A stretch of DNA of 64,000 bases from assembly GCF_000385565.1 (NCBI RefSeq), contig NC_021169.1, positions 930,001-994,000 on the forward strand. Direction: 5' to 3'. This document shows, piece by piece, positions 10,455-23,663 of this stretch (within the stretch, counting starts at the first letter, position 1; every line of letters begins with the position of its first letter). This DNA comes from Archaeoglobus sulfaticallidus PM70-1. GTDB taxonomy: Archaea; Halobacteriota; Archaeoglobi; Archaeoglobales; Archaeoglobaceae. A model generated the notes under the pieces. That model did no database searches and was not told where the DNA came from. It saw nothing but the letters and a program-made list of their open reading frames with translations. The position numbers and the translations under genes are program-made.

Positions 10455-11318
10455 GTGAGTTCTTTTGAGTTGAAACCGATAGGATATGTCAGGAAGAAAG
10501 ATGAAATCGAGATACTCGAGGAATTCATCCCGGCGATGGACGGGTTGAGCGAGGGAATGTTGATATGGGTGCTTTACATCTTCCATCTATCCACTGAGAA
10601 AATCAGAGTTCATCCAAAAGGCGATACAAGAAAACCTTTGAGGGGTGTTTTCTCGACGAGAAGTCCTTACAGAATTAATAAAATCGGTTTAAGCGCTGTA
10701 AAGATAAGAAAGATAGAAAAGAATATCATAAAGGTTGATGGGCTTGACGCCCTTGAGAACTCTCCGGTTGTTGATATAAAACCGTTTGCTGAGGTGTATG
10801 ATGTGCCGTATGGATCTGTTCTTTCAGCTGAGGACATTCTGAAGAGGATTAGAAATGAGAATCTCATAACCGACTACATCGATCTGGAAACCCAGATTCA
10901 GCCGAATGGTTTTGATTGCACGCTAAAGAAGGTGTCAAGGATTAAGGGAATGGGCAGGATAGACTTCGACAACAGCGAGAGGGTTATTCCAGAAACCCTG
11001 GAAATCGAGTTCGATGAAAATGGATGGGTGTTTCTTGAAAAAGGAGTTTACAGGGCAACTCTGAATGAGATCGTGAGCCTTTCAGAGGACATAATGGCAT
11101 TTGCCAGACCCCGCTCCACGCTGATAAGAAGTGGAGCTAATGTGCTGACTGCAGTATGGGACGCCGGATACAGGGGTAGAAGTGAAGTGGGAATAGTCGT
11201 TTACAATTCCGAAGGCATAATGCTCAAAAAGGATGCCAGAATCGTACAGTTAGTTTTCATAAAGCTCACAGAGCGGACAAAACCATACAATGGGGTTTAC
11301 CTGAACGAGAACATCTGA
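10455..11318 (+). CDS. TrmO-like tRNA methyltransferase fused to dUTPase
   Basis: A 287-residue two-domain protein. Residues 1-115 carry the TrmO (YaeB/TsaA) signature HPKGDTRKPLRGVFSTRSPY, then LDALENSPVVDIKPF; TrmO methylates N6-threonylcarbamoyl-A37 of tRNA. Residues about 117-287 are a dUTPase/dCTP-deaminase fold with QPNGFDCTL, ARPRSTLIRSG and WDAGYRGRSEVGIVVYN, which would remove dUTP. In other archaea these are separate proteins as far as I know. A GTG at 10803 (residue 117) is preceded by GAGGTG six bases upstream, so a free dUTPase of 171 residues may also be made. In operon with the SWIM gene. Confidence 0.82.
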   Translation: MSSFELKPIGYVRKKDEIEILEEFIPAMDGLSEGMLIWVLYIFHLSTEKIRVHPKGDTRKPLRGVFSTRSPYRINKIGLSAVKIRKIEKNIIKVDGLDALENSPVVDIKPFAEVYDVPYGSVLSAEDILKRIRNENLITDYIDLETQIQPNGFDCTLKKVSRIKGMGRIDFDNSERVIPETLEIEFDENGWVFLEKGVYRATLNEIVSLSEDIMAFARPRSTLIRSGANVLTAVWDAGYRGRSEVGIVVYNSEGIMLKKDARIVQLVFIKLTERTKPYNGVYLNENI

Positions 11319-12172: not shown

Positions 12173-12215
12173 TTGAGCTCACCATATATACCTAGTTCAA
12201 ACTCATCAACCACAT

Positions 12216-12255
12216 TGTCATCAAAACTGTCAAAAACTGTCAAAAGTAAAATATA
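12216..12255 (+). promoter_or_regulatory. Triple TGTCA operator and TATA box before yeiH-like gene 1
   Basis: TGTCA occurs at 12216, 12228 and 12238, that is with 12 then 10 bp spacing, each followed by an A-rich run (CAAAAACTGTCAAAAG). Immediately after comes AAAATATA (12248-12255), a TATA-like element about 24-31 bases before the ATG at 12279. The gene lacks a Shine-Dalgarno sequence and is probably leaderless. The same three boxes with the same spacing occur at 15512-15538 in opposite orientation. Confidence 0.6.
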
Positions 12256-12278
12256 GTCAACCCTTACTTAACAACATC

Positions 12279-13280
12279 ATGGAGAGAAAAATCATCACTG
12301 CAGAGAGTCTTAAGAGAACGACCATTACTGGATTGAGAGACATCAAACAGAATTTTTTTGCGGTATCGCTTATAATAACCTCTGGATTGTTAGCATACGC
12401 TATCAGTCTGATCGATCCAGCATTTGATACCCTCTTCATGGCACTGTTCATGGGAATCGTTTTTGGATCACTGTACGGGGGTAAGAAAAAAGAGATAATA
12501 TCTCAAAAAGCTTTGAGCATAACTCTACCGGTTGGCATTATCCTGTATGGATCAAACATAATTTTTCCAAAGGAGATTGAGATACCTCCTGCATACATCG
12601 CCGTTACATTGATAAGCACGATATCCTTGGGATTTAGTGTATACCTGCTTGCGAGAGCCAACAACTTAAGCAACAAGTTTACAACCCTTCTTGTATGCGG
12701 AAACGCGATTTGCGGAGCCTCAGCAATAGCAATTGTCTCATCAATAATAAATCCCAAGAATAGAGAGTTCTCCACTTCGATAATTATAATAACGGTTGTT
12801 GGACTGACCGGAGCGGTGATATATCCATCCCTTTATTACTCCCTTAACCTTCCTGAGATCAAATACGCCTTGCTGAGTGGTTCAACGCTCCAGCAAACAG
12901 GTCTCGTGAAAATAGCCACAAATCAGTTCGGTGAGCATGTTGAGACTCTTGCTCTTGCAATAAAGGCGATACGAATTGCGATGATTGCAGTAGTTGTGCT
13001 GCTCGTCTCTTTCCTGTACTCTGATCAGAAATTCTATGTGCCGTGGTATATTGTGGCATTCATACTCGTAGCTTTTCTCTCCCAGAACCTAATTCCGTAC
13101 GAGGTTATTGTTGTGTTCCAGCCCCTTTCAACACTGGCTTTTGCAATAACCCTTGCGTCCATTGGTTTTTCAGTTAATCTCAGCGATATTCAAAATGTTG
13201 GGTTATCTCCTCTAATCATTGTCTATGCCGGGTGGTGCTTCTCGGTGATATTCTCTCTCCTTTTGCTGAGTTTTGTGTGA
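12279..13280 (+). CDS. YeiH/UPF0324 family transporter (putative sulfate exporter type)
   Basis: A 333-residue polytopic membrane protein with about ten helices. It contains the family signature CGNAICGASAIAIVSSI (about 144-160). The C-terminal half has LASIGFSVNLSDI, matching the conserved end of the family. YeiH homologues such as TauZ/SuyZ are proposed to export sulfate in sulfonate degraders; the true substrate is unproven. Length is normal for the family. It has no ribosome binding site, and its start lies 24 bases past a TATA-like element, so it is likely leaderless. The PAS-winged-helix regulator follows after nine bases, probably on the same transcript. Confidence 0.88.
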   Translation: MERKIITAESLKRTTITGLRDIKQNFFAVSLIITSGLLAYAISLIDPAFDTLFMALFMGIVFGSLYGGKKKEIISQKALSITLPVGIILYGSNIIFPKEIEIPPAYIAVTLISTISLGFSVYLLARANNLSNKFTTLLVCGNAICGASAIAIVSSIINPKNREFSTSIIIITVVGLTGAVIYPSLYYSLNLPEIKYALLSGSTLQQTGLVKIATNQFGEHVETLALAIKAIRIAMIAVVVLLVSFLYSDQKFYVPWYIVAFILVAFLSQNLIPYEVIVVFQPLSTLAFAITLASIGFSVNLSDIQNVGLSPLIIVYAGWCFSVIFSLLLLSFV

Positions 13281-13289
13281 GGTGGTTTT

Positions 13290-15524
13290 ATGGAGAAGTG
13301 GATGATAAAGAGCTTCAACCCGATGGAAATAAAGAAAGCGTATAGATTTCCGATATTCCTGAAAATAGTTCTTGTTTCGCTGTTCTTCTCCACATTATCT
13401 CTCTCGCTATATGTTGCGACTTTTTATTTCCCAAGGAGGTTCGCTTTTGAGTATCTTGTGTATATAGGCATAATTCTTTTCGGTACCTCTCTTTTTGCTG
13501 CTGGAAGTATTGTTGAGCCAATAAAAAGGGTAAAAGAGGGATTTACTAAGTTAGCAAATGGTGAAAAGGCCTATGTAAAAGTAAACACAGGAGATGAGCT
13601 TGAAGAACTTGCAGATTCGTTCAACATTATGGCATATGAGATAATGAGGCAGAGAGAAGTGATAAAGGAGAATGAAGAAAAATACAGATCTCTTGTTGAA
13701 AATATAAACGACTGGGTTTTTGAGATAAACGAGGACTTAATCATCACATACTCCAGCTCGAGATGCCTCGATTTTCTTGATAGAAGTCCCTATGAGATAA
13801 TAAACAGACCTCTTCTTGAGTTTATCGATAGCCAGGATAGACACAGTGTGATGGAAGTTTTGGCTGAAAAAAAAGAGTTTAGCGGTCTGGATGTTCGTTT
13901 AGCCAATCAGGACGTAGTTCTCGAGATTTCCGGTAAGCCTTTCCACGACGACAGCGGGAACTTTAAAGGCTACAGGTGTGTAGCAAGAGATATCAGCCTC
14001 AGAAAAAAGGCTGAACAGGAGACAGCGTACCTTGTAAGCATTCTTGAACATACGATAGATGCCATAGTCTCTCTCGATTTAGACACGAGAATAGTCTCAT
14101 GGAATAAGGGAGCCGAGAAGATGTTTGGTTACACGGCTGAGGAGATGGTTGGAAAACCACTTTCGACACTCATCCCCCCTGAGAAGCATAAAGACTGTGC
14201 TGAAAACTTTAAAAAAGTCGTCAATGAGGGTTTTGCCAGAGATATAGAGGCGATCAGAATATCAAAAAATGGAAAGATTGTTGTTGTTGATCAGACAGTA
14301 ACAGCGATCCATGATTCTCAGGGAGAGCTAACAGGATTCGTTGCGATAATGAGGGATATTACGGAGAGAAAGAAGGCTGAGATGGCGTTGAGGACAGCAT
14401 ATAAAGAGCTTGAAGAAAGAACTAAAGAGCTCGAGGAATCAAAAAGAGAACTTGAATATCTTGCGAAGATTGTAGAGAACTCCAACGATGCGATATATTC
14501 CATTGACCTGGATAATAAAATAACAAGCTGGAACAGAACTGCAGAGAGGCTTTTCGGGTGGAGGAGAGAGGAGATTCTTGGGCAGGATGTGAACATCATA
14601 GTCCCCGAAGAGCTGAAAAAGGAAATATCAAATGTTAAGGAGAAAATTGGGAAAGAAAATCTTACATACGAAACCAGAAGGATAACAAAAGATGGTAAGA
14701 TCATTTTTGTTGAGGTTACAGCCATCCCTGTTTATGACTCTGATGGTAAGCTGACAAGGATATCATTCATAGCAAGAGACATTTCATCGAAACTCAAAGC
14801 TGAAAAGGAGCTTTTAAGGAGGATATCCAGATACAGTATAGAGAAAGGAAAAGTTTACCTCATAGAACATTCCACCGACCTTTGTGATGAGATACTGTCA
14901 GACTTGATCAAATGCGGGTTTGATGGGTACATATTCACACGCAGAAACTCCGAGGATATTAAATGCGAAGGAGCGAGAGTGTTCTATTTATCAGAAAAGG
15001 AGAATTTCAACACAGTTAAGCCAGATCCCAAGGTTTTGAGAGAGAGCATAATACACATGCAGGGCTGGAACAATGCCGTTGTTATCGATCTTGATTACAT
15101 ACTGATGAAAACACAGTTTTCTGAAGTTTTAGAGTTCATTCAGGAGATAAAGGATGCCTTCTATCTATTCTCCAAAGGAGTTGTGATATTTCACATCGAT
15201 CCCTCCTTAATCTCGGAGAGTGAGCTTAAAATTCTGAAGAAAGAATGTGAATCGATCAAACAGAAAGAGCACGACCTTCCTGGAGAGGTTTACCAGCTCA
15301 TGAGACACATATACATGGAGAACAGAGTTGGAAACAGACCATCAATAAAAGAACTCATGGAGAAATTCGGTCTTGCGAGAAATACAATCAAAAAAAGGCT
15401 GAGCTACCTTGCCAGCAGAGGGCTCATAAAAATCGAGAAAGAGGGAAGAATAAAAATTGTCGAATTGACTGACAAGGGCAAGGATTACTTCGTTATTTCT
15501 CACCGAACTGCTGACACTATTTGA
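13290..15524 (+). CDS. Membrane-anchored HAMP-PAS-PAS-PAS-DUF835-winged helix regulator
   Basis: A 744-residue one-component sensor. Two membrane helices lie at about 23-47 and 53-72. A HAMP-like segment follows (VEPIKRVKEGFTKLANGE), then three PAS domains (about 128-245, 248-365, 395-515) with their C-caps ending ARDIS, MRDITERKKAE and ARDIS. A DUF835-like region (about 520-650; GKVYLIEHSTDLCDE) and a C-terminal winged helix follow: SIKELMEKFGLARNTIKKRL then SRGLIKIEKEGRIK (about 685-735). No histidine-kinase domain is present, so the signal would pass straight to the DNA-binding domain while it is tethered to the membrane. The start ATG follows GAGGTGG. It lies between two YeiH transporters. 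Confidence 0.85.
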   Translation: MEKWMIKSFNPMEIKKAYRFPIFLKIVLVSLFFSTLSLSLYVATFYFPRRFAFEYLVYIGIILFGTSLFAAGSIVEPIKRVKEGFTKLANGEKAYVKVNTGDELEELADSFNIMAYEIMRQREVIKENEEKYRSLVENINDWVFEINEDLIITYSSSRCLDFLDRSPYEIINRPLLEFIDSQDRHSVMEVLAEKKEFSGLDVRLANQDVVLEISGKPFHDDSGNFKGYRCVARDISLRKKAEQETAYLVSILEHTIDAIVSLDLDTRIVSWNKGAEKMFGYTAEEMVGKPLSTLIPPEKHKDCAENFKKVVNEGFARDIEAIRISKNGKIVVVDQTVTAIHDSQGELTGFVAIMRDITERKKAEMALRTAYKELEERTKELEESKRELEYLAKIVENSNDAIYSIDLDNKITSWNRTAERLFGWRREEILGQDVNIIVPEELKKEISNVKEKIGKENLTYETRRITKDGKIIFVEVTAIPVYDSDGKLTRISFIARDISSKLKAEKELLRRISRYSIEKGKVYLIEHSTDLCDEILSDLIKCGFDGYIFTRRNSEDIKCEGARVFYLSEKENFNTVKPDPKVLRESIIHMQGWNNAVVIDLDYILMKTQFSEVLEFIQEIKDAFYLFSKGVVIFHIDPSLISESELKILKKECESIKQKEHDLPGEVYQLMRHIYMENRVGNRPSIKELMEKFGLARNTIKKRLSYLASRGLIKIEKEGRIKIVELTDKGKDYFVISHRTADTI

Positions 15525-15554
15525 CACTTTTTTTGACGATATTGCTAAATATAT
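15512..15554 (+). promoter_or_regulatory. Triple TGTCA operator (inverted) and TATA box before yeiH-like unit 2
   Basis: On the plus strand TGACA starts at 15512 and 15522 and TGACG at 15534 (spacing 10 then 12 bp). Read on the minus strand this is CGTCA-12-TGTCA-10-TGTCA, the same geometry as the site at 12216. It overlaps the stop codon of the regulator gene (15522-15524). A TATA-like AAATATAT follows at 15547-15554. A leader of about 80-100 bases then precedes the small membrane protein gene. Confidence 0.58.
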
Positions 15555-15654
15555 TTGCTTCGAAAATATTAAACTGGAATTGGAGATTTAGATGTTTTTG
15601 AACGGACTGGATAAAACCGAAATTAGATGAAAAAATAAGATGGGGTGTTGAAAA

Positions 15655-15798
15655 ATGGCGGAGGAAGAGATCTATAAGGAGGAGCCATGGGATCCAATGG
15701 AAGGGAAACTGATTAAGTGGAGTGTAATACTAGGGATTGTCCTGACGATTTTGCTGGCAGCAATCATACACATGACAATCCTAGCAGAGTATAGTTGA
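15655..15798 (+). CDS. 47-residue single-span membrane protein
   Basis: A small open frame encoding 47 residues: an acidic, charged N-terminus (MAEEEIYKEEPWDPMEGK) and one hydrophobic helix (WSVILGIVLTILLAAI) ending HMTILAEYS. The predicted form is a single-pass protein with a cytoplasmic acidic tail. Its stop is 23 bases before the large YeiH-like gene, and both lie downstream of the 15512 operator, so co-expression is likely. By analogy with small subunits of other transporters it could be an accessory subunit. I do not know a named family. The next gene starts with the similar residues MADE, which may be coincidence. Confidence 0.7.
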   Translation: MAEEEIYKEEPWDPMEGKLIKWSVILGIVLTILLAAIIHMTILAEYS

Positions 15799-15821
15799 GG
15801 TGGTAGTTGAGGTGATATAAA

Positions 15822-17276
15822 ATGGCGGATGAAAGGAAATGGTATACTGGAATGTTTAGCACAGAGGACTGGTGGGCATTCTGGATAGGGCTGTTCTTTG
15901 TTATCCTTGGACTGATCGCTGCAGTAACAAAAATAGACCTGACTGGATGGATCGTCGCATTTGGCAACTGGGTAGACATAACGAAATCATTCCACGCTGC
16001 ACATAAAGACCTAATGAGTCCAGTAGCTTCATTAATAGTATCATATGTAATATTCTCAATCGTTACAGCCATTGGAGCATGGGCAATGAAATGGAATGTC
16101 AAGGACTACCTCAAGGCATGGACATTGATATTCATCATCACAACGATTGCATACATAATCGGTCAGTATGGTTATCTCAGTGCCACATCGAACAAGTGGT
16201 CCAAACTTGGAATTTCGTGGAGCTTGCAGATAGGAGGAGCTTACTATATCATAGCACTAATAATAGGTCTTCTCATTGGTAACTTCGCACCAAAGGGATT
16301 CAAAGAGTTCATGAAGAGGGCTGCAAGACCAGAGTGGTTCATCAAGATCGCTATCGTTGCATTAGGTGCCAAGCTTGGTCTGAAGGCTATCGAGGCTACA
16401 GGATTTGCCATGCACCTGCTGTTCGCAGGAGTCTGTGCAACAATTGCAGCATACTTGCTCTTCTGGCCACTTGCATACACAATGAGTAGGAAAGTTTTCA
16501 AGCTCTCAAAAGAGTGGTCAGCGTGCCTTGCATCAGGTATCTCAATATGTGGTGTTTCTGCAGCTATAGCGACTGCCGGAGCTATCAGAGCAAGACCAAT
16601 CGTGCCTGTAATGATCTCATCGCTGATAGTCGTTTTCGCAGTTATAGAGCTTGTAATTCTTCCGGGTGTTCTGGTTACGACATGGTTCCACGAGCCAATC
16701 GCTGCTGGAGCAAGCCTCGGTCTTACTGTTAAGACAGACGGTGCAGACGCTGCGGCTGGAGCAATACTCGATCAGCTGATGATCTCAAAGGCAGCGAGCA
16801 TGGGCATCTATTGGGATGAGGGCTGGATTCTCGCATCAGCCATCATGACTAAGATCTGGATCGACATGTTCATAGGTGTCTGGGCATTCGTTCTCGCTAC
16901 TGTGTGGGTCTACTACTTCGAGAGAAAACCAGGCGAGAAAGTCCAGAAGATGGAGATCTGGTGGAGATTTCCAAAGTTCGTCATCGGTTACTTCGTAGCA
17001 ATGTTCTCAGTCATGGGTCTCGGACTTGCTGGAATCCTGTCTCACGAGAGCCTTGAGTTCGGTCTTAAGCCTGTCGAGGGTGCACTGAGGCACTTCTTCT
17101 TCATGCTGACATTCACCAGCATCGGTATCGTAACTGACTTCAGGGCATTGAAGGAGGAGGGGCTTGGAAGGCTTGCCATTGCATACGCGGTGATCCTTGC
17201 AGTGATCATTATACCCATTGGATGGTTTATCGCATGGCTCTTCCACCACGGTATGGTACCACCATCACCACAGTAA
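15822..17276 (+). CDS. Large YeiH/UPF0324-like transporter with N-terminal extension
   Basis: A 484-residue polytopic membrane protein, about 150 residues longer than typical YeiH. The family signature is SGISICGVSAAIATAGAI (about 234-251), and a conserved late helix region reads FTSIGIVTDFRALKEEG. The extra N-terminal part (about 1-120) has three or four more helices and tryptophan-rich loops (MFSTEDWWAFWIG). Other loops include GLTVKTDGADAAAG. It presumably carries an anion such as sulfate or a sulfur compound, by analogy with TauZ/SuyZ. GAGGTGAT lies at 15808-15815 before the ATG. Preceded by the 47-residue membrane protein. Confidence 0.85.
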   Translation: MADERKWYTGMFSTEDWWAFWIGLFFVILGLIAAVTKIDLTGWIVAFGNWVDITKSFHAAHKDLMSPVASLIVSYVIFSIVTAIGAWAMKWNVKDYLKAWTLIFIITTIAYIIGQYGYLSATSNKWSKLGISWSLQIGGAYYIIALIIGLLIGNFAPKGFKEFMKRAARPEWFIKIAIVALGAKLGLKAIEATGFAMHLLFAGVCATIAAYLLFWPLAYTMSRKVFKLSKEWSACLASGISICGVSAAIATAGAIRARPIVPVMISSLIVVFAVIELVILPGVLVTTWFHEPIAAGASLGLTVKTDGADAAAGAILDQLMISKAASMGIYWDEGWILASAIMTKIWIDMFIGVWAFVLATVWVYYFERKPGEKVQKMEIWWRFPKFVIGYFVAMFSVMGLGLAGILSHESLEFGLKPVEGALRHFFFMLTFTSIGIVTDFRALKEEGLGRLAIAYAVILAVIIIPIGWFIAWLFHHGMVPPSPQ

Positions 17277-17278
17277 TT

Positions 17279-17297
17279 TAATTTTTTATTTTTTTGT
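17279..17297 (+). terminator. Oligo-T terminator after the YeiH-like gene
   Basis: Directly after the TAA come two T runs (ATTTTTTATTTTTTTG), typical of archaeal intrinsic termination. No hairpin is needed or seen. Confidence 0.45.
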
Positions 17298-17339
17298 TGG
17301 AGGAAAAATTGAAAAGTTCTGACAAGATGGGTGAATTCG

Positions 17340-17576
17340 ATGGAGAAGATCGTTTTAAGTTTGCTGCATGACGGCAAGCAGTGGATAGCCAAAAATGGTG
17401 AGATCGTTGCTAAAGGAGAAACCCTTGACGAACTGGACAAAGAGATAGAAAGTGTTGTGAGAAAGAAATATCCTGGAAAGAAAGTCAAAGTAAGCATGGA
17501 ATTTGATTACAGCAGTATTCCATTCTGGATAATCCAGTATCACCCGTATTATTTGTATAGGGTTATTTACATCTAA
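17340..17576 (+). CDS. Small DUF5395-like protein
   Basis: A 78-residue soluble protein: LSLLHDGKQWIAKNGEIVAK, then LDELDKEIESVVRKKYPGK, and an aromatic end with MEFDYSSIPFWII and YHPYY. I place it in the archaeal DUF5395-like group from this pattern. The fold looks like a small alpha-beta domain and the function is unknown. The ATG at 17340 is chosen because GGGTGA lies five bases upstream; an in-frame GTG at 17331 overlaps that site. It lies just downstream of the YeiH-like transporter, separated by a T-rich terminator. Confidence 0.65.
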   Translation: MEKIVLSLLHDGKQWIAKNGEIVAKGETLDELDKEIESVVRKKYPGKKVKVSMEFDYSSIPFWIIQYHPYYLYRVIYI

Positions 17577-21437: not shown

Positions 21438-23663
21438 ATGATGTCTCAGAAAATTGAGGTCAAGCTAAACAAAGACCTTGGCTTTTTTGACATAACAATG
21501 ATAGGCATCGCGGGAATGATTGGTGCCGGTGTTTTCGCGTTGACAGGGATTGCTGCAGGCATCTCTGGCCCAGCACTGATCATTGCGTTCTTCTTCAATG
21601 GCCTCATTGCAACCATTACAGCTTTGGCTTATGCAGAACTCGGCTCCTCGATGCCACAGGCAGGAGGAGGGTACGTCTGGATCAAGGAGAGCTTCCCACA
21701 GTCAGCCGGATTTATAGCCGGGTGGATCGACTGGTTCGCACACAGCGTTGCCTGTGCATTATATGCCGTAACCTTTGGAGCTTTTGTTGCAGTCATTCTT
21801 GAGGGCTATATGCCCTTCATTCTGGTTTCAAAAGTCTCATCATTTTTAGCCGTTACATTATTCGCGTATGTGAACTATATTGGCGTTAAGGAGAGTGGAA
21901 AGGTTGGAGGGATAATAACTCTAACCAAGGTAGTCATACTGCTCGTTTTCACGATCTTTGGAGTTTACAGAACATTCTCAAACCCGGAATGGGTGTTGAG
22001 GTTCACACCCTTTATGCCGAACGGTATGCAGGGTGTGCTTGCTGCGATGGGTTTAACATACATAGCCTTTGAAGGCTACGAGATCATCGTACAGAGCGGT
22101 GAGGAAGTTAAGAACCCGGAAAAGAACATTCCCAGGGCGGTTCTCGTATCGCTGTGGGTTGCTACACTGATATATATTCTTGTAGCAGTCTCCGTTCTTG
22201 GAGGAATAGACAGCGACAGGCCAAGCTGGATGTACCTGGGTGAGCTTGGAGAGCTCGGCCTGATAAAGACTGCTGGAAGCATAATGCCCTTTGGCTTCGC
22301 AATTCTGCTTTTTGCCGGACTGGTTTCAACCACGAGTGCGATGAACGCCACGATATACTCATCATCAAGGGTCGCCTTTGCGATGGCAAGGGACTCGTTT
22401 TTACCGAGAGCACTCTCGGAGATAGATGTCAGGAGAAGAACTCCGCGAAACTCGATCTTTTTCTCGTACATAATAATCTCTGCAATGACTCTGAGCTTGC
22501 CAATAGAGGCTGTTGCAGCATCTGCAAACATAATGTTCATCCTGCTCTTCGTGATGGTGAATCTCACACTCATACTGATGCGTTACAAGGCTCCGAACCT
22601 AAACAGGCCGTTTAAGGTTCCTTTCGTTCCGTATCTGCCGATAGTAGCGGTGATCCTTCAGTTTGTTATAGGGTACTTCATGATATCGATGCTCGAGCAC
22701 GGTTTCCTCGCCCTGGCAGTTTCGGTGCTCTGGATTGTGCTCGGGATAGTGATATACTCTTCCTATTCTAAGGAGAAGGTCAAGGAGGCGATAAAAGAGG
22801 AGATAAAAACAGTGTTCGAGGAAGGACACCTTGAGGAGAGGCCGTACAGAATACTCGTTGCATACGCGAATCCGGCGATAGGGAAGATGCTTCTCGAGTT
22901 TTCAGATTTCATAGCCAAAGCCAAGAATGGCGAGATAAAGGTCATGAATGTTGTAAAGCTCCCGGAACAGACACCGCTGAAGGCTGGGATGAAGCTTGTA
23001 AGAGAGCAAATAGAAGAGATCGATGAGTTACTGAGAATCCCATCATCTCCAGCCAAGGGAGTTATAAAAGTAGCTCACAGCGTTAGTGATGCGATAATAA
23101 GTGAGGCTGCAGAATACAAGGCAAATCTTGTCGTTCTTGGATGGAGGGGCAGAACATTCAGAAGGGATTTCGTGTTTGGTAGCACAATTGATCCTGTGCT
23201 GCTCAAAGCCCCATGTGATGTTATTGTCACAAGACCCGAACCTGGTTTCAACATAAAGAAAGTTGAGAGAGTCCTGATTCCCACCGCAGGAGGGCCGCAT
23301 GTCAGGTTTGCTCTCCAGCTTGTCAAGGATCTGATGCAGATTTCAAAATTCGATGTCTCGCTGTGCTTTGTCGGAAAGAATGAAAGTGAGCTCAGGAAAG
23401 GTAAAGCCGTGATAGAGGCTTGCAGGAAGGAGAGCGGAATAGATGCAGATGAGATCCTGAAGCTATCCGATGACCCGATAAAAGGCATAGCAGAGATTGC
23501 CAGAAACTACGACATGATGTTCGTTGGGGCAAGTGACGAGCCATTTTTCAAGAATTTCATAAAGGGCATGTTTGTTGAAAAGCTCGTGAAGGAGACCAAT
23601 AAAACGGTTGTGATGGTCAGAAAGAAGATTAAGGTGTACGATATTATCAGAAGATTGTTTTAG
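21438..23663 (+). CDS. APC-family amino acid permease with C-terminal UspA domains
   Basis: A 741-residue protein. Residues about 10-435 form a twelve-helix APC permease (IGIAGMIGAGVFALTGI near the start, AMGLTYIAFEGYEII in the middle), close to cationic amino acid transporters. Residues about 455-735 form two tandem universal-stress domains: YRILVAYANPAIGKM to VTRPEP, then VERVLIPTAGG to VVMVRKK. Such permease-Usp fusions are common in archaea, and the Usp part probably senses nucleotide. The substrate is not known. It is convergent with the MscS gene, whose stop overlaps its end. Confidence 0.88.
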   Translation: MMSQKIEVKLNKDLGFFDITMIGIAGMIGAGVFALTGIAAGISGPALIIAFFFNGLIATITALAYAELGSSMPQAGGGYVWIKESFPQSAGFIAGWIDWFAHSVACALYAVTFGAFVAVILEGYMPFILVSKVSSFLAVTLFAYVNYIGVKESGKVGGIITLTKVVILLVFTIFGVYRTFSNPEWVLRFTPFMPNGMQGVLAAMGLTYIAFEGYEIIVQSGEEVKNPEKNIPRAVLVSLWVATLIYILVAVSVLGGIDSDRPSWMYLGELGELGLIKTAGSIMPFGFAILLFAGLVSTTSAMNATIYSSSRVAFAMARDSFLPRALSEIDVRRRTPRNSIFFSYIIISAMTLSLPIEAVAASANIMFILLFVMVNLTLILMRYKAPNLNRPFKVPFVPYLPIVAVILQFVIGYFMISMLEHGFLALAVSVLWIVLGIVIYSSYSKEKVKEAIKEEIKTVFEEGHLEERPYRILVAYANPAIGKMLLEFSDFIAKAKNGEIKVMNVVKLPEQTPLKAGMKLVREQIEEIDELLRIPSSPAKGVIKVAHSVSDAIISEAAEYKANLVVLGWRGRTFRRDFVFGSTIDPVLLKAPCDVIVTRPEPGFNIKKVERVLIPTAGGPHVRFALQLVKDLMQISKFDVSLCFVGKNESELRKGKAVIEACRKESGIDADEILKLSDDPIKGIAEIARNYDMMFVGASDEPFFKNFIKGMFVEKLVKETNKTVVMVRKKIKVYDIIRRLF

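Follow-up and report, generated by a model that had tools for sequence, protein, structure and literature searches.

By which carrier sulfur oxyanions cross the membrane of archaeal sulfate reducers is a question raised by a group of five neighbouring genes in the heat-loving archaeon Archaeoglobus sulfaticallidus PM70-1. Sulfate import in Archaeoglobus fulgidus has been called uncharacterised (PMC3949148), and neither SulP nor the ABC-type SulT system is found in archaeal sulfate reducers (PMC5840216). The genes lie in a stretch of 64,000 nucleotides (the window; bases 930001-994000 of a genome assembled as a single contig of 2,076,931 bases; G+C content of the window 43.6%). Their order is YeiHs, REG, SMP, YeiHL and DUF5395, where YeiHs and YeiHL denote the small and the large transporter of family PF03601, REG a membrane regulator and SMP a protein of 47 residues. 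The reading preferred here, with a probability of roughly 0.6, is that YeiHL, SMP and the DUF5395 protein form a multi-subunit secondary transporter of a sulfur oxyanion, which serves dissimilatory sulfate or sulfite reduction and is controlled by REG. An earlier reading of the same DNA from its letters alone (the sequence-only reading) had placed every open reading frame that it named correctly and had recognised these parts of the unit; it missed the DUF5395 gene and the distribution across phyla. The features of the unit, in window coordinates, are the following.

12212-12245, minus strand: reversed copy of the triple TTGAC operator, 5' of YeiHs, a candidate autoregulation site of the YeiHs-REG unit (profile score 26.3; scan E=1.6e-5)
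12279-13280, plus strand: YeiHs, small PF03601 (PSE) transporter, 333 residues (PF03601 185.5 bits; TIGR00698 220.1 bits)
13290-15524, plus strand: REG, one-component membrane regulator, 744 residues (Pfam, hydropathy, alignment of 20 orthologues)
15509-15542, plus strand: triple TTGAC direct-repeat operator, 34 bp, overlapping the end of REG (kept in 18 modules; scan E=2.3e-12)
15546-15555, plus strand: presumed TATA-like box of the SMP-YeiHL-DUF5395 unit (read from the sequence)
15655-15798, plus strand: SMP, single-helix membrane protein of 47 residues, a short member of a new family, without the zinc ribbon of its relatives
15822-17276, plus strand: YeiHL, long PF03601 (PSE_2-like) transporter, type I, 484 residues (PF03601 82.9 bits; structure model with pLDDT 87.5)
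17340-17576, plus strand: DUF5395 protein, 78 residues, conserved partner of type I YeiHL (96.4 bits; structure model with pLDDT 90)

The large transporter and its two small neighbours occur together far beyond the Archaeoglobi. The YeiHL alignment was scanned against 84,980 species genomes and gave at least 579 relatives, the best 80 of which were kept. These come from Archaeoglobi, Desulfobacterota, sulfate-reducing Firmicutes, Nitrospirota, a Methanodesulfokora metagenome-assembled genome (MAG), nitrosomonads, Rhodospirillales and others. Seven of the 80 genomes, in which the gene caller gave no anchor, were left out of the neighbour counts. Of the remaining 73 loci, 62 have an SMP homologue next to YeiHL and 55 have DUF5395 there; the commonest order of the core is SMP-DUF5395-YeiHL (32 loci). 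The full set is also present at loci of ammonia oxidisers (L127, L128, L132, L138 and L140). The 47-residue protein itself has no match in Pfam, NCBIfam or PHROGs, and its hydropathy indicates one membrane helix. The protein of the window is a shortened form; its counterparts in most close relatives have a zinc ribbon at the N-terminus. Among 37 members the recurrent Pfam matches are zinc-ribbon models, the membrane part being covered by no Pfam family, and a motif composed of an acidic tail, E-P-W-[DE], E-x-K-L-V and one helix recurs in the family. The SMP model matched 102 of 16,869 open reading frames, many of them the same gene in overlapping loci; three long matches are the YeiHL that bears a fused zinc ribbon. 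A family-trained model run on 36 whole genomes found SMP in eight places, each beside a type I YeiHL (as defined below) and nowhere else. Cross-domain synteny thus speaks strongly, if short of proof, for the suggestion of the sequence-only reading that the 47-residue protein may be a subunit of the large transporter. Small open reading frames and short repeats are often spurious, and the 47-residue frame and the operators could in principle be chance features among ordinary neighbours. This explanation is highly improbable, as it is already contradicted by the synteny: the SMP protein is conserved in over 60 loci with a recurring E-P-W...E-x-K-L motif, always beside YeiHL, and gene order and operator are kept across the family.

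Tiny accessory membrane subunits are familiar from other transporters, KdpF and the DUF485 and DUF4212 partners of sodium-solute symporters being examples. They resemble SMP in that the gene of a tiny membrane protein lies beside that of a large transporter, but SMP has no Pfam model and its large subunit comes from another superfamily. The product of the third core gene (17340-17576) belongs to DUF5395 (PF17373; 96.4 bits against a cut-off of 25 bits). Its structure model consists of three strands followed by helix, strand, helix and strand. No significant fold match was obtained for it; a short stretch resembling a putative antitoxin (E=1.9) was disregarded. A literature search, with subscription papers outside its range, found no mention of DUF5395.

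The conservation of the unit was followed among 60 relatives, in which larger regions were inspected. Among the genomes compared are those of probable A. fulgidus (G035), A. veneficus (G009), A. profundus (G026), Geoglobus (G006) and Ferroglobus (G015). The sequence-only reading had staked its proposal on the genes staying together in relatives, and they form a conserved module, not a scattered set: the order YeiHs, REG, YeiHL is kept in 18 modules of Archaeoglobaceae. Some genomes, that of A. sulfaticallidus included, have two modules. Two types of large transporter can be distinguished. Type I YeiHL is 49-73% identical to that of the window and carries SMP and DUF5395, whereas type II is about 28% identical, comes without either and is followed in several loci by a beta-propeller gene. 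In the probable A. fulgidus subgroup the SMP gene stands after YeiHL, not before it. An SMP-like partner was also sought for type II; no conserved small neighbour appeared, only overlapping frames. In one type II protein (L057) the N-terminus is itself extended by a fused zinc ribbon resembling that of SMP. The second module of the source genome (L032:7876-13500, near 315-320 kb) contains YeiHs, a REG 50% identical to the first, a type II YeiHL and a beta-propeller gene. The YeiHL gene of the probable A. fulgidus genome lies in two frames (L044:8546-10068), with a one-base break relative to its congener, for which a genuine break, an error in the sequence and a programmed frameshift are all conceivable.

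The involvement of sulfur, likewise proposed from the sequence alone, is supported by co-occurrence with dsrA and by one locus linked to dsrAB. In a comparison of 36 genomes of Archaeoglobaceae, YeiHL was present in 20 of the 24 whose dsrA exceeds the cut-off and in none of the 12 that lack it (Fisher p=1.5e-6, uncorrected for relatedness); one of the 20 genes is split by a frame break. Among the four genomes with dsrA and no YeiHL, two have a completeness of 72-76%, one (G023) is broken into 190 contigs, and one (G013) has the start of a YeiHL at a contig end. The last was rejected as a counter-example, the operator and the first residues of a type II YeiHL being present at that end. An order-level relative outside the family (G036) has a type II YeiHL without dsrA. 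In the set drawn from many phyla, dsrA exceeded the cut-off in 60 of the 80 best YeiHL genomes (39/50 and 21/30) and in none of 14 control genomes, which are not a matched background. The aprA gene is present in most of the tested YeiHL genomes that bear dsrA. When sulfate was set against sulfite by means of aprA, most genomes carried both genes, and several of the assemblies without aprA are small or fragmented. A direct physical link was found in an Ignavibacteriaceae MAG (L172), where YeiHL, SMP, dsrA and dsrB follow one another, the dsrA and dsrB products being 61% and 57% identical to the probable A. fulgidus proteins. Because the core recurs mostly in archaea and bacteria that breathe sulfate or sulfite, the unit is a candidate for the missing anion transporter.

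The two transporters belong to the same family without being equivalent to YeiH. Both exceed the PF03601 (PSE) cut-off of 24.5 bits (185.5 bits for YeiHs, 82.9 bits for YeiHL). Neither reaches the NCBI cut-off of 232.6 bits for the YeiH subfamily TIGR00698, YeiHs coming close with 220.1 bits and YeiHL scoring 32.5 bits. By these scores neither is counted as a YeiH equivalent, and YeiHL is to be placed far from YeiH proper. The published account of the PSE family (PF03601, TC 2.A.98, with YeiH and SuyZ) describes a PSE_1 form of nine helices and a PSE_2 form of eleven (PMC8396727). The solved folds nearest to YeiHL belong to the same CPA/AT superfamily as these proteins, and its extra N-terminal helices may correspond to those of PSE_2. 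PSE_2 as published has two additional helices before the PSE core, whereas the YeiHL model has three (residues 15-36, 67-88 and 93-114) ahead of the core match. A further difference is that YeiHL comes with SMP and DUF5395, neither of which is mentioned in the accessible part of the literature on PSE proteins. The nearest solved folds to the YeiHL model are the CPA/AT secondary transporters NHA2, CitS and NhaP, with E values of 0.002 or worse and low overall TM-scores; a search by sequence for a solved PF03601 structure found none. Helix breaks occur in the model at about residues 242-244 and 303-305, and Cys243, Lys304 and Asp306 are shared by all of 52 type I sequences. Position 304, which is Lys in type I and Phe in all type II proteins, is a candidate for a difference in substrate or coupling between the types. 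Elsewhere in the source genome (L055:8357-9358, near 603 kb) there is another small PF03601 gene, with a gene for a universal stress protein after it, and similar neighbours may exist in probable Geoglobus genomes.

'Sulfate exporter', the suspected function that the sequence-only reading took over for these proteins, is a weak label: the substrate of PSE proteins is unproven in the literature consulted, and import is at least as plausible in a sulfate reducer. A transcriptome study of A. fulgidus noted high expression of AF1617-AF1619, hypothetical genes whose products have multiple membrane helices and which lie beside the PAS gene AF1620 (PMC3949148). Gene counting from sat (AF1667) in G035 gives numbers that agree to within about one with DUF5395, both pieces of YeiHL and REG; the register of this mapping is fixed by the adjacent PAS gene. 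By such counting AF1617-AF1619 appear to be the A. fulgidus orthologues. Uptake is favoured because the known archaeal sulfate importers leave a gap and because expression is apparently high. Sulfite efflux is favoured, on the other side, by the phenotype of Salmonella YeiH and by the presence of YeiHL where aprA was not found or where growth on sulfate is reported not to occur. YeiHL could then be a sulfite exporter or homeostasis valve, induced through REG by sulfite or redox stress and directed against the toxic sulfite formed by APS reductase, and YeiHs likewise, in the manner of YeiH of enteric bacteria. In Salmonella yeiH is needed for sulfite resistance (PMC12880088), and a Hyphomicrobium YeiH is induced by thiosulfate and proposed to extrude sulfite (PMC11582611); some genomes, the Methanodesulfokora MAG among them, have YeiHL and dsrA, and no aprA was found in them. 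Such a valve nevertheless seems rather unlikely, as the A. fulgidus genes were highly expressed with no induction noted, more in the manner of a bulk carrier (PMC3949148), and as YeiHL is far from YeiH proper (32.5 against 232.6 bits) and has extra parts that YeiH lacks.

Several observations weigh against a sulfur-oxyanion transporter of the proposed kind. The complex of YeiHL, SMP and DUF5395 would rest on synteny, and relatedness and shared habitat inflate the co-occurrence with dsrA. Candidates resembling CysP and CysZ exist in archaeal sulfate reducers (PMC5840216). A. veneficus is reported not to grow by sulfate reduction (PMC8322695), yet its probable genome has two modules, and the notion of a pure sulfate importer is weakened for this reason. 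The clear exceptions are nitrosomonads: seven genomes contain SMP-DUF5395-YeiHL without dsrA, and no aprA was found in the four that were tested. The complete set in these bacteria would be explained if the substrate were some other anion, bicarbonate or sulfide for instance, that ammonia oxidisers have in common with dsr-bearing anaerobes, the dsrA link then reflecting lifestyle. We regard this as improbable. YeiHL is missing from the Archaeoglobaceae that lack dsrA, probable Geoglobus and Ferroglobus included, even though the type strains of Geoglobus and Ferroglobus carry complete gene sets for CO2 fixation (PMC8322695), and the adjacency of dsrAB in L172 also argues for sulfur.

The regulation of the unit is consistent with a local, dedicated control. 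REG exceeds the Pfam cut-offs for HAMP, three PAS domains and DUF835. A C-terminal winged helix (residues 670-735) is indicated by sub-threshold matches alone (DUF6293_C, HTH_41 and GntR, about 1e-4), and the Pfam search returned no kinase domain. Hydropathy shows two closely spaced membrane helices. REG thus agrees, with its winged helix below threshold, with the definition of a one-component system (sensor and DNA-binding domain in one protein, without kinase or receiver), and the sequence-only description of sensors and a DNA-binding domain joined in one membrane protein stands to the same degree. Only two full DUF835 regulators exist in the source genome, and because each of them sits between a YeiHs and a YeiHL, the domain and neighbour data support REG as a dedicated one-component membrane regulator. 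All of 20 REG sequences share Cys653, located where DUF835 ends; as a guess, this residue could be a redox or persulfide switch. The arrangement recalls the YeiE-YeiH pair of enteric bacteria, in which a PF03601 transporter also lies beside a dedicated regulator that responds to a sulfur anion (PMC12880088). YeiE is, however, a soluble LysR-type protein, whereas here a membrane PAS-DUF835-winged-helix protein is combined with two transporters and small partners. In two Firmicutes loci (L134 and L171) a second PF03601 gene and two-component-system-like genes lie near YeiHL, the sensors being assigned by eye. Bacteria thus seem to have combined two transporters with a sensor in a form of their own, a counterpart of what is found in the archaea.

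The operator upstream of YeiHL is a triple direct repeat with the consensus CTGACACTnTTTGACACTTTTTTTGACGATAT and half-sites about one helical turn apart; in the window a TATA-like stretch directly follows it. The operators that the sequence-only reading had described as shared are real: the triple TTGAC repeat is present at both sites, with profile scores of 50.3 (15509-15542) and 26.3 (12212-12245); simulated sequence of 4 Mb gave 11.4 at most. The profile was built from orthologous sites including 15509-15542, and the score of that site is partly a matter of construction. A scan of the whole source genome with a profile from 17 sites gave exactly three sites, all before YeiH-type genes: one ahead of SMP-YeiHL, one ahead of the type II YeiHL and one, in reversed orientation, ahead of YeiHs. 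The modules that bear REG have the operator, in a divergent form in some type II loci, and it was not found at the four examined YeiHL loci without an adjacent REG (L043, L045, L048 and L051). Because the operator tracks REG, the sites are few and local, and only two full DUF835 regulators are present, binding of REG to the triple repeat is a strong inference from the sequence comparison. The position of the operator upstream of the TATA-like box suggests that REG may act as an activator. The site before YeiHs was seen only in the genus of A. sulfaticallidus, with weaker copies in its other members, and the proposed switching between two transporters is unsupported beyond that genus. A wider sulfur regulon was considered and rejected: the source genome has only the three sites, and no convincing site was found in the dsr regions examined from eight genomes, nor before sat in the probable A. 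fulgidus genome. One additional strong site away from YeiH genes (L093:4817-4856, E=2e-9) was recorded in the probable A. veneficus genome, upstream of a gene for a TAT-signal C_GCAxxG_C_C redox protein.

From these data we infer a mechanism in which YeiHL would act as an elevator-type transporter, probably coupled to Na+ or H+, with SMP as a single-helix membrane subunit and the DUF5395 protein as a soluble cytoplasmic subunit or regulator. Sulfate or sulfite uptake would be its most likely role, and sulfite efflux the main alternative. The PAS/DUF835 part of REG may sense a redox or sulfur signal, and its winged helix would bind the triple TTGAC repeat just before the TATA-like box and probably activate the SMP-YeiHL-DUF5395 unit. 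In the genus of A. sulfaticallidus REG may also act on its own YeiHs-REG unit. A further step, that the three-subunit class of long PF03601 protein, SMP and DUF5395 is the main high-flux sulfate or sulfite carrier of archaeal and many thermophilic sulfate reducers, is put forward tentatively, as a possibility that we hold to be somewhat less than even. SulP, DASS, CysP and CysZ have the same proposed role in dissimilatory sulfate reduction and are unrelated families (PMC5840216). The survey of these and the ABC families does not mention PF03601 and offered distant candidates for archaea (PMC5840216). Such a class would have been missed because of the families that the survey covered, and because SMP has no Pfam model.

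Two fusions were recorded elsewhere in the window, both on the plus strand. A protein of 287 residues (10455-11318) joins an N-terminal TrmO domain (tRNA methyltransferase O) to a dCTP deaminase/dUTPase-like domain, which is an unusual combination, and at 21438-23663 an amino-acid permease is fused to a universal-stress-protein domain.

As to novelty, PF03601 with its long form (PMC8396727) and one-component PAS regulators as a kind are already known. The SMP family appears to be new, as do its regular association with DUF5395 and the long transporter in more than one domain of life and the connection with dsrA; no earlier description of the unit was found in the literature search, to which the limit stated above for subscription papers applies. 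Summarizing, a new microprotein family is defined here and DUF5395 is placed in a context, and the local PAS-DUF835 regulator with its clear operator offers a tractable archaeal model of membrane-anchored gene control. The unit, which tracks dissimilatory sulfite reductase, is a specific candidate for sulfate uptake in A. fulgidus.

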